Virus record (IMG/VR): IMGVR_UViG_3300046690_000885 | Span: 1 to 38,792 of that record | Source: a virus | Length of the DNA: 38,792 nt | Direction: 5' to 3' (one strand) | In this document: piece by piece, positions 25,586 to 31,390 of the stretch | How the letters are laid out: each line of letters begins with the position of its first letter | How positions within the stretch are numbered: position 1 is the stretch's first letter | Position numbers and translations under genes: made by a program | Notes under the pieces: model-generated | Seen by the model: only the letters and a program-made list of their open reading frames with translations | Told to the model about the DNA's origin: nothing | The model's database searches: none

Positions 25586-25812
25586 GCGCGCCGCCATACC
25601 CAATGCACAAAGAAACCGCGCAACCAGGAGAACAGGTAGAGGATGCACAGCGCAAAGATGCCGTATTGGCCGGCTTTCCACGTTGTGTAGAACCAGAACG
25701 GCTGTGCGACGAGCCCGAATAGACAGGCGAAGCGCCGGCGATCGGCGCGGACGTCCTGGGACAGGAACACTGACGCCACGCCGCATAGCCCGATGGCGAT
25801 TTGGTCGAACAT
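25582..25812 (-). CDS. Small membrane protein in early right operon
   Basis: 76-aa protein with two or three hydrophobic segments: FDQIAIGLCGVASVFLS (residues 2-18), FACLFGLVAQPFWFYTTW (about 28-45) and YGIFALCILYLFSWLRGFF (about 50-68). Positive charges lie between the first two. ATG 25812 overlaps the CII-like stop (TGATG). It resembles small host-membrane-modifying proteins in early phage operons; role unknown. Confidence 0.7.
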   Translation of the reverse strand: MFDQIAIGLCGVASVFLSQDVRADRRRFACLFGLVAQPFWFYTTWKAGQYGIFALCILYLFSWLRGFFVHWVWRRA

Positions 25813-26285
25813 CACGTGCTCTTAAGCTTGGTGGGGGCAGGGCGGCAGTAAATTCGCTCGGTAAGCGCGTTGATTTCCTCAACGCTGCGGTGAATCGCGT
25901 TGCCGATGCGCTTCAAGTCGGCCATTTCTCTCTCGTCGACAACGTCGTCTTCGGTAGCTTCCTGATACCGGCGGGCGAGGGCGCCGTAATGCGCGGTCAA
26001 CTCAAGGAACTTGGTCAGAATTTCCTGGTTGTCGGGCGTTTCTGTCGCTGCGGGCAGCTTCACCAGTACGGCGTTGCGGTCGTGGACCCAAGCTTCCAGG
26101 ATCCGCTCGTCGCCCGTAACCGCGGTGATACGCACCGCTTCCAGCAACGAAAGTTTATGAGTGTCGTTGTTCGGGTTGACCTTGTTTCGTATCACCGCCG
26201 CCGGCATTGCGACGCGCGGTGCGAGCGATTCACTACCCCCCGGATAGTCATGCACGACGGCGTAAGCAGCGTCTTCGATGTTCAC
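25812..26285 (-). CDS. CII-like regulator, Phage_CP76 family
   Basis: 157-aa transcriptional regulator. The start (GTG; GGAG six bases upstream) leads into NIEDAAYAVVHDYPGGSESL, APRVAMPAAVIRNKVNPNND and THKLSLLEAVRITAVTGDER, the hallmark of the CP76 regulatory family that includes CII-type proteins. The C-terminal third is helical. It lies second in the early right operon after the Cro-like gene, the cII position. It should help set lysogeny by activating repressor and/or integrase promoters, but no activator site is identified here. Confidence 0.85.
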   Translation of the reverse strand: MNIEDAAYAVVHDYPGGSESLAPRVAMPAAVIRNKVNPNNDTHKLSLLEAVRITAVTGDERILEAWVHDRNAVLVKLPAATETPDNQEILTKFLELTAHYGALARRYQEATEDDVVDEREMADLKRIGNAIHRSVEEINALTERIYCRPAPTKLKST

Positions 26286-26365: not shown

Positions 26366-26596
26366 CTAGGCGGAAGCCTGTTCGGTTGCCTGTTCCATCG
26401 GATAAAGATCCGGCCGCAGCTCATGACGAGTCACGGCGCCATCCACGGCGCGCTCAACCGGGATCACCCGTTCCGCCGGAACCTTTCCGGTACTGCACAT
26501 CTTCGAAACGGCTTGGGGGGTACATCCCAGCTTGCGAGCAAGCGCTGATTGACCGCCGGCGAGTTGCGCGGCGCGCTCGATGGCATGCGTGGTCAT
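26366..26596 (-). CDS. Cro-like regulator, YdaS type
   Basis: 76-aa HTH protein: MTTHAIERAAQLAGGQSALA, RKLGCTPQAVSKMCSTGKVP, AERVIPVERAV. This matches the YdaS/Cro-like family. It is the first gene leftward of the divergent operator region and faces the repressor gene, so it is the Cro equivalent that shuts down repressor synthesis during lytic growth. GAGG lies upstream of the ATG. The 80-base gap after it holds a short AGTCC/GGACT hairpin without T-run. Confidence 0.82.
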   Translation of the reverse strand: MTTHAIERAAQLAGGQSALARKLGCTPQAVSKMCSTGKVPAERVIPVERAVDGAVTRHELRPDLYPMEQATEQASA

Positions 26597-26620: not shown

Positions 26621-26699
26621 TACAACCGAAATTTACAACTTACAACCAAATGAATCAACCGCTTTTTGCAATGCCGGTTACAACCAACTTTTGTATCAT
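26621..26699. promoter_or_regulatory. oR-like region: divergent early and repressor promoters with TACAAC operators
   Basis: TACAAC boxes start at 26621, 26634, 26641 and 26679; the first three form the layout box-7-box-1-box. TACAA (26679-26683), 7 bp, TTGTA (26691-26695) forms a 17-bp inverted repeat. On the minus strand TTGATT (26658-26653), 17 bp, TAAATT (26635-26630) is a candidate early right promoter overlapped by the boxes. On the plus strand TATCAT (26694-26699) is a candidate -10 for the repressor, with no clear -35. Confidence 0.7.
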
Positions 26700-26706
26700 C
26701 CGGCCT

Positions 26707-27438
26707 ATGAGACCTGTGCCTATCGGAAAGCGGATCAAAGAGGTACGCACCGCGTACCGTCAAAAAGACGGTGGCGAATTCAGTCAATCGGACCTCGCGC
26801 GCGCGGTGGGAACGTCGCCCCAAGCTGTTCAGAAGTGGGAGTCCGGACTTAGCGCGCCGCGCAATAATCGTCTAAAAGCTGTGGCTGAAGCGCTTAACAC
26901 ATCAGTAAAAGAGCTGGTCCGCGGAACAGAGCTAGAAGGAATTGCCGAATCCGACCCACAAAAGTCCGTAAGCAACAGTAAAGTTTTCCCCCAGAGAGGC
27001 GCGAACATACGTGCTTTGCATAGAAAACTTGGCTCCATCCCAGTTCTTTCTTGGGAAAGAGCCAGTACCTGGGGGCCTACTGTGGAAAATTTTGACCCGG
27101 AAGACGCCGAAGATTGGATGCTTTGTCCGTTCGATCATGGACCTGCGGCGTTTATTCTGGAAGTTGCTGGAGAGAGCAATTACGATCCCACCGGTGCCAA
27201 GTCTTATGCGCCGGGAGAATTCATCGCTGTGGATCCAGAGCGGGAGCCGATAAATCGCAGCATGGTTGTCATCCGACTGGACCACGAAGAGCGGGCGACA
27301 CTGAAACAGATCTTGATGGATGAAGGCGGTACGAAGTTGCTGAAGTCGCTGAATCCAAATTGGCCTAGTCGTGTTGCGCCAATACCGGAAGAATCAAAGA
27401 TTATCGGCGTCGTCATAGGTAAGTGGGTGCCTGAATGA
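26707..27438 (+). CDS. Prophage repressor, HTH plus S24 (LexA-like) domain
   Basis: 243-aa CI-type repressor. The HTH_3 domain is QSDLARAVGTSPQAVQKWES (residues 27-46). The C-terminal S24 domain has FILEVAGESNYD with Ser157 as nucleophile, YAPGEFIAVDPE and VVIRLDHEERATLKQILMDE with Lys200 as general base. The expected Ala-Gly cleavage site reads Ala119-Ser120 (WERASTW), which is unusual. The ATG lies 7 bases after the candidate -10 and has no clear ribosome binding site, so a leaderless message like lambda cI is likely. An upstream in-frame ATG is rejected because it lies inside the operators. Coupled by ATGA to the lipoprotein gene. Confidence 0.88.
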   Translation: MRPVPIGKRIKEVRTAYRQKDGGEFSQSDLARAVGTSPQAVQKWESGLSAPRNNRLKAVAEALNTSVKELVRGTELEGIAESDPQKSVSNSKVFPQRGANIRALHRKLGSIPVLSWERASTWGPTVENFDPEDAEDWMLCPFDHGPAAFILEVAGESNYDPTGAKSYAPGEFIAVDPEREPINRSMVVIRLDHEERATLKQILMDEGGTKLLKSLNPNWPSRVAPIPEESKIIGVVIGKWVPE

Positions 27439-27851
27439 GGATTTTGCAAGCTATGCGGATTGGGCTTGCATGCGTATTCCTTTGCGGATGCGCCTCGCAG
27501 ATGGACTTGTCGCTTCTGCCTCGAGGTTCCGGCGCGCTCGCGCATGGCGTCATGAAAAAGCCGGGTAAATCCGTCGATATCAATATCGACGGCCAGAATT
27601 TCTCCGGTACATACGCTTTCGTCGTCGGTGGAAATTTCACCTTGGCATCCTTCAGCGGCCCACAATCTAGTTCCGTTGGTGCAGCGACATCCGTAGATCA
27701 AGTCGGCAATGGAAACATCATTGCGAGCGCTATCGATGGGGAAAATCTGCGATGCGTCTTTTCCTACAGTGGGTGGAGCAATTCAGGCACCGGAACTTGC
27801 CGCCGTGATGATGGACGCCTCTACGATTTACAACTCGCACCACGCTACTAG
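27435..27851 (+). CDS. Lipoprotein co-transcribed with the repressor (rex position)
   Basis: 138-aa protein with a lipoprotein-type signal: basic start, hydrophobic core (IGLACVFLCGC) and a lipobox-like LCGC with the expected lipidated Cys at residue 19. The mature part is Gly/Ser-rich beta (INIDGQNFSGTYAFVVGGNF, GNGNIIASAIDGENLRCVFS) with a Cys pair near LRCVF and GTGTC. ATGA overlap with the repressor and a strong terminator behind it place it in the lysogenic transcript, where lambda has rexAB. It is therefore probably made in the lysogen and may act in superinfection exclusion or surface change; no direct evidence. Confidence 0.75.
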   Translation: MRILQAMRIGLACVFLCGCASQMDLSLLPRGSGALAHGVMKKPGKSVDINIDGQNFSGTYAFVVGGNFTLASFSGPQSSSVGAATSVDQVGNGNIIASAIDGENLRCVFSYSGWSNSGTGTCRRDDGRLYDLQLAPRY

Positions 27852-27876
27852 CAAGACCCGAATATTCTCTAAAAGG

Positions 27877-27901
27877 AGCCGCCTGCGGGCGGCTTTTTTT
27901 T
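27877..27901 (+). terminator. Strong intrinsic terminator of the repressor-lipoprotein operon
   Basis: AGCCGCC (27877-27883), loop TGCG, GGCGGCT (27888-27894), then a run of eight T residues to 27901. It separates the lysogenic transcript from the early left promoter region. Confidence 0.92.
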
Positions 27902-27910
27902 ATCGCCAAC

Positions 27911-27960
27911 TACAACTTTTGCTTGCGGTTGTTTGTTGTAAGTTGTAATCTGAAGTTGTA
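27911..27960 (+). promoter_or_regulatory. oL-like region: second copy of the three-box operator with early left promoter
   Basis: GTTGTA boxes at 27935-27940, 27942-27947 and 27955-27960 show, on the complementary strand, the same spacing (7 and 1 bp) as the boxes at 26621-26646; GTTGTAAGTTGTAA is identical in both. A further TACAAC lies at 27911. Aligned with the right promoter, TTGCGG (27923-27928), 17 bp, TAATCT (27946-27951) is the candidate early left promoter; TGTAAT (27944-27949) is an alternative -10. Confidence 0.68.
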
Positions 27961-29315: not shown

Positions 29316-30173
29316 ATGGAACCGATCACGACCCCGAACCTCGCCGAGACTCTGGCGAAGGAACTGAAACAGCCGATGGAAATTGCGTCGAACACGGCGG
29401 TCGCACTGCGCCGCGTCGCGCTGCCGCCGGGCTGGAAGCTGGAAGAGCACGACGACGAGCGCTCGCTGGCCGCGCCGTTGCGCAAGACCGCTACGGTGCG
29501 CGTCCGCGACGCCGAAAGCTTCATCGCCTATATGAAGCGCCATGGCTCGCTGACTGACAGCACGGTCTGGTGTCTCGCCGACTATGTGCAGGGCAAAATT
29601 GCGTTCACCGGCATCGTCAACGATCACGGCGAAGACGAGAACAAACCGGCGTGGCGCGATCACCAAGCCCGCTTCGCTCCCGAGTTCAGCGAGGAATGGC
29701 GGCGCTGGTCGGGCACGAACAAAAAGCAACTCACGCAGACCGAGTTCGCCGCGTTCATCGAAGATAACCTGAAAGACATTGCGAGTCCGGAAGGTTCAGG
29801 CCTGCCGAGCGGTTCCTCAATGCTCGAAATGGCGCTGTCGTTCGAAGCCACGCAGGACATGCGATTCAAGAGCGCGATTCGCCTCTCGAATGGCGGCGTC
29901 AACCTCTCGTTTGTGCAGGACGACGACGCACAAACCCTTCAAAAAATGTCCGTGTTCGAACGCTTCGCGATCGGCATTCCGGTTTTCTGGAACGGCGACG
30001 CGTATCAGATCGACGCGCGGCTTCGCTATCGCGTGCGCGACGGCAAGCTCTCGTTCTGGTTCGAACTGATCCGCGCCGACAAGGTGCTCGAGGCGGCCGC
30101 GACGACCGTCATCAACACGATCAAGGGCGAAACCGGCTCGCCGTTCTTCTTCGGCGATCCGTTCGCAAGCTGA
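29316..30173 (+). CDS. DUF2303 family protein
   Basis: 285-aa protein of DUF2303. Key parts: LRRVALPPGWKLEEHDDERS, ATVRVRDAESFIAYMKRHGS, AFTGIVNDHGEDENKPAWRD and SMLEMALSFEATQDMRFKSA; the end (YRVRDGKLSFWFELIRADKV) is also typical. Length is normal for the family. DUF2303 genes lie in phage early operons near recombination genes, and their activity is unknown. It is followed by a strong terminator at 30218-30243. Confidence 0.85.
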   Translation: MEPITTPNLAETLAKELKQPMEIASNTAVALRRVALPPGWKLEEHDDERSLAAPLRKTATVRVRDAESFIAYMKRHGSLTDSTVWCLADYVQGKIAFTGIVNDHGEDENKPAWRDHQARFAPEFSEEWRRWSGTNKKQLTQTEFAAFIEDNLKDIASPEGSGLPSGSSMLEMALSFEATQDMRFKSAIRLSNGGVNLSFVQDDDAQTLQKMSVFERFAIGIPVFWNGDAYQIDARLRYRVRDGKLSFWFELIRADKVLEAAATTVINTIKGETGSPFFFGDPFAS

Positions 30174-30217
30174 GTGGGACGCGTAGCAGCATGACCCCGC
30201 TGCTGCGTGTGTGTTTT

Positions 30218-30243
30218 GCCCGGGCTTCGGCCCGGGCCTTTTT
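30218..30243 (+). terminator. Strong intrinsic terminator before the methyltransferase gene
   Basis: GCCCGGGC (30218-30225), tetraloop TTCG, GCCCGGGC (30230-30237), then CTTTTT. It ends only 16 bases before the methyltransferase ATG, leaving no room for a promoter between them. Confidence 0.93.
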
Positions 30244-30259
30244 CCTCGAGATCCCGCAA

Positions 30260-31390
30260 ATGAGCAAATGGCTCGACCGCTGCCACTTCGGCGATTGCCG
30301 CGACACGATGCGCGCGATGATCGCCGATGGCGTCAAGGTGCAAACGATCGTCACGTCGCCTCCGTATTGGGGTTTGCGCGACTATGGCGGCGTTGCCGGC
30401 CAGATTGGGCACGAACCGACGCTGCGCGAGTTTATCGATACGCTGGTCAGGGTGTTCGAATTGTGCCGCGAGCTGCTCGCCGAGGACGGTACGGCGTGGG
30501 TGAACATGGGCGATAGCTATTGCGGCAATCGCGGCGCCGCGTGGGGCCCATCGGAGGCCTCGACCCATGCTCGCGCAACGGTGAAATCTCGCCGGCGCGA
30601 TGACGAGCCAATTCCGCGCTCTGACGTGAGAGTCGAAGGTCTGAAGCCGAAAGACCTGGTCGGCCAACCATGGCGGCTCGCGTTCGCCTTGCAGGACGCC
30701 GGCTGGTATCTGCGTCAGGACATTGTTTGGCACAAGCCGAACCCGATGCCAGAAAGCATGCGAGACCGCTGCACTAAGGCACACGAATACCTGTTCCTGC
30801 TTTCGAAGTCGGAAAAATACTACTTCGACCAGGATGCGATTCTCGAGCCGGTCAGCGCGACGACCGCGGCGCGCCTTTCACAGAATGTCAATGCCCAGGC
30901 AGGCAGCGAGCGCGCTAACGGCGGCGGCAAGACCAACGGAAACATGAAGGCTGTCGCGCGAGGCGTCGGCTGGGGGCACGGCACTGACGCCGAGCAACGC
31001 GGCCGCGGCCGTGTGACAACAAAAGAAGCGCCAGAGAAAGACGGTGGCCGCCTTGAGCAAGGTTTGCGGCCCGCCGCTCGCATGGGTGGCGGCGCTGGCT
31101 GGCGCGAGCAAGGCCGTCCGCTCGACCGCAATAAACGCAGCGTTTGGACCGTCCCGACTCAGTCGTATAGCGGCGCGCACTTCGCGACCTTTCCAGAGAA
31201 GCTCGTCGAGCCGTGCGTACTCGCTGGCTCGCGCGTGGGTGACGTCGTCTTCGATCCGTTCTTCGGTAGCGGTACCTCCGGACAGGTCGCATCGCGCCTC
31301 GGACGCCGCTTCATGGGCTGTGAACTGAACACCGACTATGAGCCCCTCCAACGCGATCGCTTGCGCCAACCCGGCCTTGAACTCGCGTGA
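30260..31390 (+). CDS. DNA methyltransferase, N6-adenine/N4-cytosine type
   Basis: 376-aa methyltransferase (N6_N4_Mtase) using S-adenosylmethionine. Catalytic motif TSPPYWGLRDYG (SPPY 33-36) precedes the AdoMet motif DPFFGSGTSG (FGSG 335-338), the beta-class order. KPNPMPESMRDRCTKAHEYL and LLSKSEKYYFDQD are also typical. Residues about 205-285 are a Gly/Arg-rich, low-complexity stretch that probably holds the target-recognition or linker part. No endonuclease gene is adjacent, so it is probably an orphan enzyme protecting phage DNA or altering expression. It lies behind a strong terminator. Confidence 0.88.
   Translation: MSKWLDRCHFGDCRDTMRAMIADGVKVQTIVTSPPYWGLRDYGGVAGQIGHEPTLREFIDTLVRVFELCRELLAEDGTAWVNMGDSYCGNRGAAWGPSEASTHARATVKSRRRDDEPIPRSDVRVEGLKPKDLVGQPWRLAFALQDAGWYLRQDIVWHKPNPMPESMRDRCTKAHEYLFLLSKSEKYYFDQDAILEPVSATTAARLSQNVNAQAGSERANGGGKTNGNMKAVARGVGWGHGTDAEQRGRGRVTTKEAPEKDGGRLEQGLRPAARMGGGAGWREQGRPLDRNKRSVWTVPTQSYSGAHFATFPEKLVEPCVLAGSRVGDVVFDPFFGSGTSGQVASRLGRRFMGCELNTDYEPLQRDRLRQPGLELA

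Follow-up and report, generated by a model that had tools for sequence, protein, structure and literature searches.

This study analyzed the regulatory region surrounding a CI-like repressor gene in the window, a DNA stretch of 38,792 bases that comprises an entire IMG/VR record. The repressor carries an HTH_3 domain and a Peptidase_S24 domain (match of 2.1e-15), and its profile matches included the lambda CI C-terminal domain (4.7e-16) and the HTH domains of P22 C2 and 434. The divergent gene to its left encodes a Cro-like protein that matched Pfam YdaS_toxin (1.9e-20), Pfam P22_Cro (1.4e-7), and the PDB entry 3bd1, "Cro protein" (3e-11); its score for PF15943 (YdaS) was 72.9 bits, against a cut-off of 30. 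A small putative lipoprotein gene, for which family searches returned no family, occupies the slot between cI and a terminator. The genes and the terminator are as follows:

25812-26285, CP76-type CII gene, beyond cro
26366-26596, minus strand, cro-like gene of the YdaS/P22-Cro type, 76 aa, divergent from cI
26707-27438, plus strand, CI-like repressor gene (cI), 243 aa, HTH_3 and Peptidase_S24
27435-27851, plus strand, putative lipoprotein gene, 138 aa
27871-27905, plus strand, terminator of the cI-lipoprotein unit, an inverted repeat (27871-27883/27888-27900) followed by a T run

The element TACAAC-N7-TACAAC-T-TACAAC, which a preliminary description had reported on both sides of the repressor unit, was found exactly at 26621-26646 (plus strand) and at 27935-27960 (minus strand), in opposite orientation. 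The 14-bp identical core GTTGTAAGTTGTAA was recovered in both copies, and the copies do flank cI together with the lipoprotein gene. Searching with up to three mismatches allowed revealed no third copy in the window; the shuffled window yielded 0 in 100 trials, and the expected number was 0. The hexamer TACAAC alone occurred 16 times in the window, compared with 6.3 expected. We refer to the array on the cro side as oR, to the array beyond the terminator as oL, and to the boxes as A, B, and C (A', B', and C' in oL). On the oL side, an N6_N4_Mtase DNA methylase gene (30191-31390) adjoins a DUF2303 gene (29316-30173).

We scanned the exact three-box pattern blindly against 2.9 million viral contigs. 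The scan retrieved 10 loci, and in all 10 the pattern occupied the oR position of a homologous immunity region, on the side of cro. At nine loci, cro lay to one side of the pattern and a homologous cI was detected on the other; the tenth (L021) was clipped at the edge, and its cI is seen in locus L101 of the same contig. The relatives with the exact pattern carry a second array with the same 7- and 13-bp steps directly after the terminator of the cI unit, with a one-box mismatch in L020. When one base of the pattern was freed, 18 stretches were obtained, all of which except L059 lay beside such immunity genes. The contig of L021, L062, and L101 (IMGVR_UViG_3300012942_000040) has the same oR and oL and, at 89 kb, is larger than the other carriers. 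In the relatives, an equivalent stem and T run precedes oL, and the stretch from cI to this terminator is a cargo slot of variable content, ranging from about 0.1 to 1.3 kb; homologs of the lipoprotein were seen in only L015 and L018.

Using an alignment of ten CI proteins as the query, we obtained 80 loci. Among the nonredundant loci with the CI recognition helix PQAVQKW, some of which were first found through the boxes and most through the protein alone, at least three TTGTA/TACAA boxes were present upstream of cI in 33 of 33 (mean 4.7; shuffled, 0.34). By contrast, among 17 loci in which a related C-terminal (S24) domain is joined to a different HTH, BcepC6B and BPP-1 included, none contained three or more boxes (mean 0.18). 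This difference indicates that the boxes follow the DNA-binding domain. The search of bacterial genome contigs with a single CI returned only distant Firmicutes HTH proteins, and the plasmid records contained only CI relatives of less than 60% identity. The preliminary description had proposed that arrays similar to oR and oL, with promoters pointing outward, flank the repressor unit, and had named the absence of the arrangement next to homologous repressors as the observation that would count against it. The three-box pattern does sit beside homologous repressors, and the layout recurs there. It is very probable that the boxes flanking the repressor function as genuine control sites and silence the dormant virus.

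To describe the individual sites, we examined the orientation of the boxes in the oR of 37 nonredundant loci. TACAA-like inverted partners were found at offset -12 for 49 of 136 TTGTA boxes, compared with a mean of 3 per offset; the sites are therefore 17-bp palindromes of the form TACAA-N7-TTGTA. A motif of this form was built from 87 sites, all of them in distant relatives outside the branch of the window, and was then applied to the window. The predicted sites and the candidate promoters are as follows:

26621-26637, predicted oR1, 17 bp, TACAACCGAAATTTACA, boxes A and B; score 19.4, rank 2 of the window; spans the pR -10/+1
26630-26658, minus strand, pR candidate, TTGATT-17-TAAATT, 8/12
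26634-26646, minus strand, C-B tandem half-sites in oR, GTTGTAAGTTGTA, 7-bp step, branch-specific
26654-26670, predicted oR2, 17 bp, degenerate, TGCAAAAAGCGGTTGAT on the minus strand; score 6.4, rank 8; overlaps the pR -35 and adjoins the pRM -35 position
26679-26695, predicted oR3, 17 bp, TACAACCAACTTTTGTA; score 20.1, rank 1 of the window; over pRM
26694-26699, plus strand, pRM -10 candidate, TATCAT, ending 7 nt ahead of the cI ATG
27911-27927, predicted outer oL site, 17 bp, TACAACTTTTGCTTGCG; score 14.1, rank 4; overlaps the pL -35
27923-27951, plus strand, pL candidate, TTGCGG-17-TAATCT, weak, 6/12
27924-27940, predicted middle oL site (box C'); score 1.8 in the window; shares 4 bp with the outer oL site
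27935-27947, plus strand, C'-B' tandem half-sites in oL, GTTGTAAGTTGTA
27944-27960, predicted oL1, 17 bp, TGTAATCTGAAGTTGTA, boxes B' and A'; score 18.6, rank 3 of the window

The top four motif sites of the whole 38.8-kb window were all located within the two arrays, and four sites scored at least 14, a number expected to be 0.07 in Markov sequence. The boxes had previously been read as direct repeats rather than as 17-bp palindromes. This reading mostly failed. Boxes B and A constitute the two halves of one 17-bp palindrome, which is easily missed since its inner half reads TGTAA and not TACAA; the 7-bp C-B tandem does exist. Besides this palindrome, the preliminary description had overlooked the further oR sites at 26654-26670 and 26679-26695 and a TACAAC in inverted orientation whose position, 27911, is exactly 24 bp ahead of the first oL box. 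The latter was present at this distance in the oL of 18 of 18 close relatives, the window included. A dyad around box A (GGTTG-N8/10-CAACC) was also considered as the operator and was dropped because its spacing, judged by eye, was unequal (7-9 in oR and 10 in oL) and because it is absent from the oL of the window.

The positions of the sites are conserved. The oR sites are spaced 25 and 33 bp apart (34 in some) in most of the 37 nonredundant loci, and in all 37 of them 10 or 11 nt separate oR3 from the cI start; the oR of L080 contains four 17-bp palindromes. The oR2 score of 6.4 is not significant alone, as the Markov null reaches such a score somewhere in 38.8 kb, and oR2 was accepted as a site only because of its conserved position; most relatives score 8-22 there, at the same spacing. 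The outer oL site scores 18-21.5 in close relatives. The middle oL site scores 6-19 in close relatives, where it is often a good palindrome, and its left half has decayed in the window; it lies at +13 in the branch of the window and at +20 in L001, L080, and L088. The predicted operator TACAA...TTGTA is common to dozens of related phages.

The candidate promoters pR and pL lie where the preliminary description had placed them relative to the boxes, and this relative position is conserved in relatives; both are nevertheless weak compared with the Escherichia coli consensus, and a strict sigma-70 scan of the region detected no promoter. At the position of pR, the relatives mostly carry TTGAAA or TTGGAA and TAGATT, and at that of pL, TTGCAA and TAATCT, TAGTCT, or TAGCCT. 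TANNAT is conserved in relatives at the pRM -10 distance from cI. The location of TATCAT 7 nt before the cI ATG places the start at the A of this codon; the cI transcript is therefore probably leaderless, starting at 26707. Part of the conservation of the left half of oR1 and oL1 may belong to the promoter because this half coincides with the -10 region, and the same may hold for box B, which overlaps the -10.

Box C is, by its sequence and position, a predicted extra half-site beside the B/A palindrome. The tandem has the form GTTGTA(A/G)GTTGTA in the oR and oL of the window's branch. In oR, box C is kept in 18 of 18 branch loci, and box B is degraded in three of the 18 (L058, L060, and L061); in oL, C' and B' are exact in 16 of 18, with C degraded in L084 and L020. 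Read as a 17-bp site, box C shares 4 bp with oR2 (in oL, with the outer site) and lies 20 bp from oR1 or oL1, and it could therefore represent an alternative, mutually exclusive register. The tandem may be bound in a manner unlike that of the lambda sites, for example, by CI or Cro in a further register that overlaps the first and is incompatible with it, such that the switch would be set by the choice of register and not by affinity only; we regard this proposal as rather unlikely.

We further compared the recognition helices of CI and Cro in 15 immunity regions of different specificity (L033, L055, L056, L077, L081, L082, L090, L092, L096, L099, L100, L102, L104, L106, and the window). The helices from the same locus were much more similar to each other than permuted pairs (BLOSUM mean of 21.7 vs 8.2, p <= 5e-5), a p value to be read with caution because the octamers were selected and aligned by hand and some regions are possibly interrelated. 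Examples of such pairs are SPQAVQKW/TPQAVSKM in the window, SRASVSEW/SRISIYEW in BcepC6B, and SQPTLHRI/SQPTICRI in BPP-1. The preliminary description had also raised two different regulators as a possibility; this finding suggests that CI and Cro of the window read the same half-site, TTGTA. A correlation between the Cro helix and the OR half-site is prior art, attributed in PMC4488713 to Hall, LeFevre and Cordes (2005).

We consider it highly likely that the window contains a temperate-phage immunity region with a lambda-like CI/Cro switch acting on 17-bp TTGTA palindromes. The architecture of the sites, their conservation, and their covariation with the HTH are established from sequence, whereas the binding, order of occupancy, activation, and role of box C are inferred as follows. 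The switch would use the three oR palindromes that separate cro from cI, together with two palindromes and a decayed middle one in oL, past the terminator. CI bound to oR1, oR2, and the oL sites would block the outward promoters pR and pL, and CI on oR2, whose center lies near -45 of pRM, could activate transcription of its own leaderless mRNA. Cooperative pairing between oR1 and oR2 is not assured because their distance of 33 bp exceeds that in lambda. Cro on oR3 would first block pRM and, at a higher level, pR and pL. The Cro proteins of the telomere phages PY54 and phiKO2 bind OR3 only (PMC4488713, PMC4997575), and Cro therefore need not read every site in the window. Box C, 7 bp from B, would have arisen in both arrays of the window's branch and would offer the alternative register.

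A different explanation is that the boxes serve as true tandem half-sites, stepped by 7 and 13 bp, on which a single regulator binds head-to-tail. Both arrays of the branch retain the C-B tandem, including those of L063, L064, L073, and L084, where the oR B-A step is 14 instead of 13, and direct-repeat binding is known for the phage repressors P2 C and Pf4r (PMC8402870). However, the arrays contain 17-bp inverted partners and one additional 7-bp tandem rather than direct repeats without an inverted partner; the inverted offset of -12 dominates in oR, neither oR3 nor the outer oL site, both palindromes, includes a tandem, and the distant relatives and PS-1, which lack box C, still have the 17-bp sites. 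The protein also differs: P2 C is not known to have an S24 domain, whereas the CI of the window, with 243 aa and Peptidase_S24, is not a small S24-less repressor and is of the lambda/P22 C2/434 type. We therefore judge purely tandem binding improbable. Still more doubtful, to the point of being very improbable, is the explanation that no regulator recognizes the boxes, which would then be promoter sequence or repeats due to chance and conserved through pR and pL alone. Box B extends into the -10 of both pR and pL, and the box designated D' into the pL -35, but boxes A, C, and H, like most of oR3, are not part of the promoter hexamers, and the motif is absent from the loci with another HTH, which also need promoters.

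It is conceivable, though we would not favor it, that CI and Cro divide the registers between them, for instance with CI on the outer sites and Cro on the C register, yielding a competitive switch. Two sites offset by 13 bp have the hexamer TTGYAA in common and are not expected to hold a dimer each at the same time, and the middle oL site differs in position between branches (+13 and +20). The PaaR2 and YdaS footprints of CP-933P overlap and differ in extent (PMC8630535). The similarity of the CI and Cro recognition helices within each locus argues against such a division, as it points to the same half-site preference.

Similar to lambda, the window has divergent cI and cro genes with three palindromic oR sites between them, sites of the same family in oL past the cI unit (oR2 being degenerate and the middle oL site decayed), palindromes over pR, pRM, and pL, a putatively leaderless cI, and a repressor that combines an HTH with an S24 domain resembling the lambda CI C-terminal domain. 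It differs from lambda in its TTGTA half-site, its overlapping middle sites, its extra tandem half-site, and its Cro of the YdaS/P22-Cro type; the OR sites of lambda are spaced about 24 and 23 bp apart, compared with 25 and 33 bp in the window. The repressors of P22 (C2) and 434 have the closest solved phage-repressor HTH domains to that of the window CI and bind as dimers to palindromes, with operator lengths and spacings that differ from those of the window; the 434 sites also use ACAA/TTGT.

The CP-933P prophage of E. coli O157:H7 (PaaR2/YdaS/YdaT), as covered by the passages of PMC8630535 used here, resembles the window in its divergent repressor and YdaS-type Cro, its leaderless repressor gene, the presence of similar operators at PL, and palindromes that overlap other repeats. 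PaaR2 and YdaS occupy overlapping sites across PRM and PR and also repress PL, and a leaderless transcript has been shown for paaR2 and reported for lambda cI. Unlike the window, CP-933P has the half-site GTTTAGTAA in 18-bp palindromes, and PaaR2, part of a toxin-antitoxin unit, is a small regulator, whereas the window has a full CI with S24; these passages describe neither the 25/33-bp spacing nor the 7-bp tandem for CP-933P (PMC8630535).

Among the named phages, Pseudomonas phages PS-1 and vB_PaeP_Tr60_Ab31 share the motif, the oR layout, and related Cro and CI proteins with the window but lack box C and have oL arranged otherwise. PS-1, which was outside the training set, has oR spacings of 25 and 33 bp and a pair of sites past the cI unit. 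Burkholderia phage BcepC6B and Bordetella phage BPP-1 contain the best named CI relatives (38% and 36%) in the same divergent cro-cI order; they differ from the window in their recognition helices and lack TTGTA sites upstream of cI. A search for TACAAC/GTTGTA operators found no description of the window's operator in the open-licence literature; PrtR/prtN and LfsT were considered as a known match, and neither is this operator. The operator family TACAA-N7-TTGTA, with its oR spacing of 25/33 bp, is defined from sequence alone, and it predicts the immunity specificity of many uncharacterized prophages. The loci in which the CI helix, the Cro helix, and the operator change together provide a natural test set, and the matched helices in the 15 regions would help to predict cross-repression between prophages from protein sequence.

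Compared with lambda CI, the window CI conserves the Ser and Lys residues, and the A-G cleavage dipeptide reads A-S. In several of the close relatives L012-L018, this dipeptide is A-A, A-V, or A-N, and the catalytic Lys position is occupied by Arg in the CI of L015, L017, and L018. It is possible that SOS-dependent cleavage does not occur in some of these repressors and that they need another inducer.
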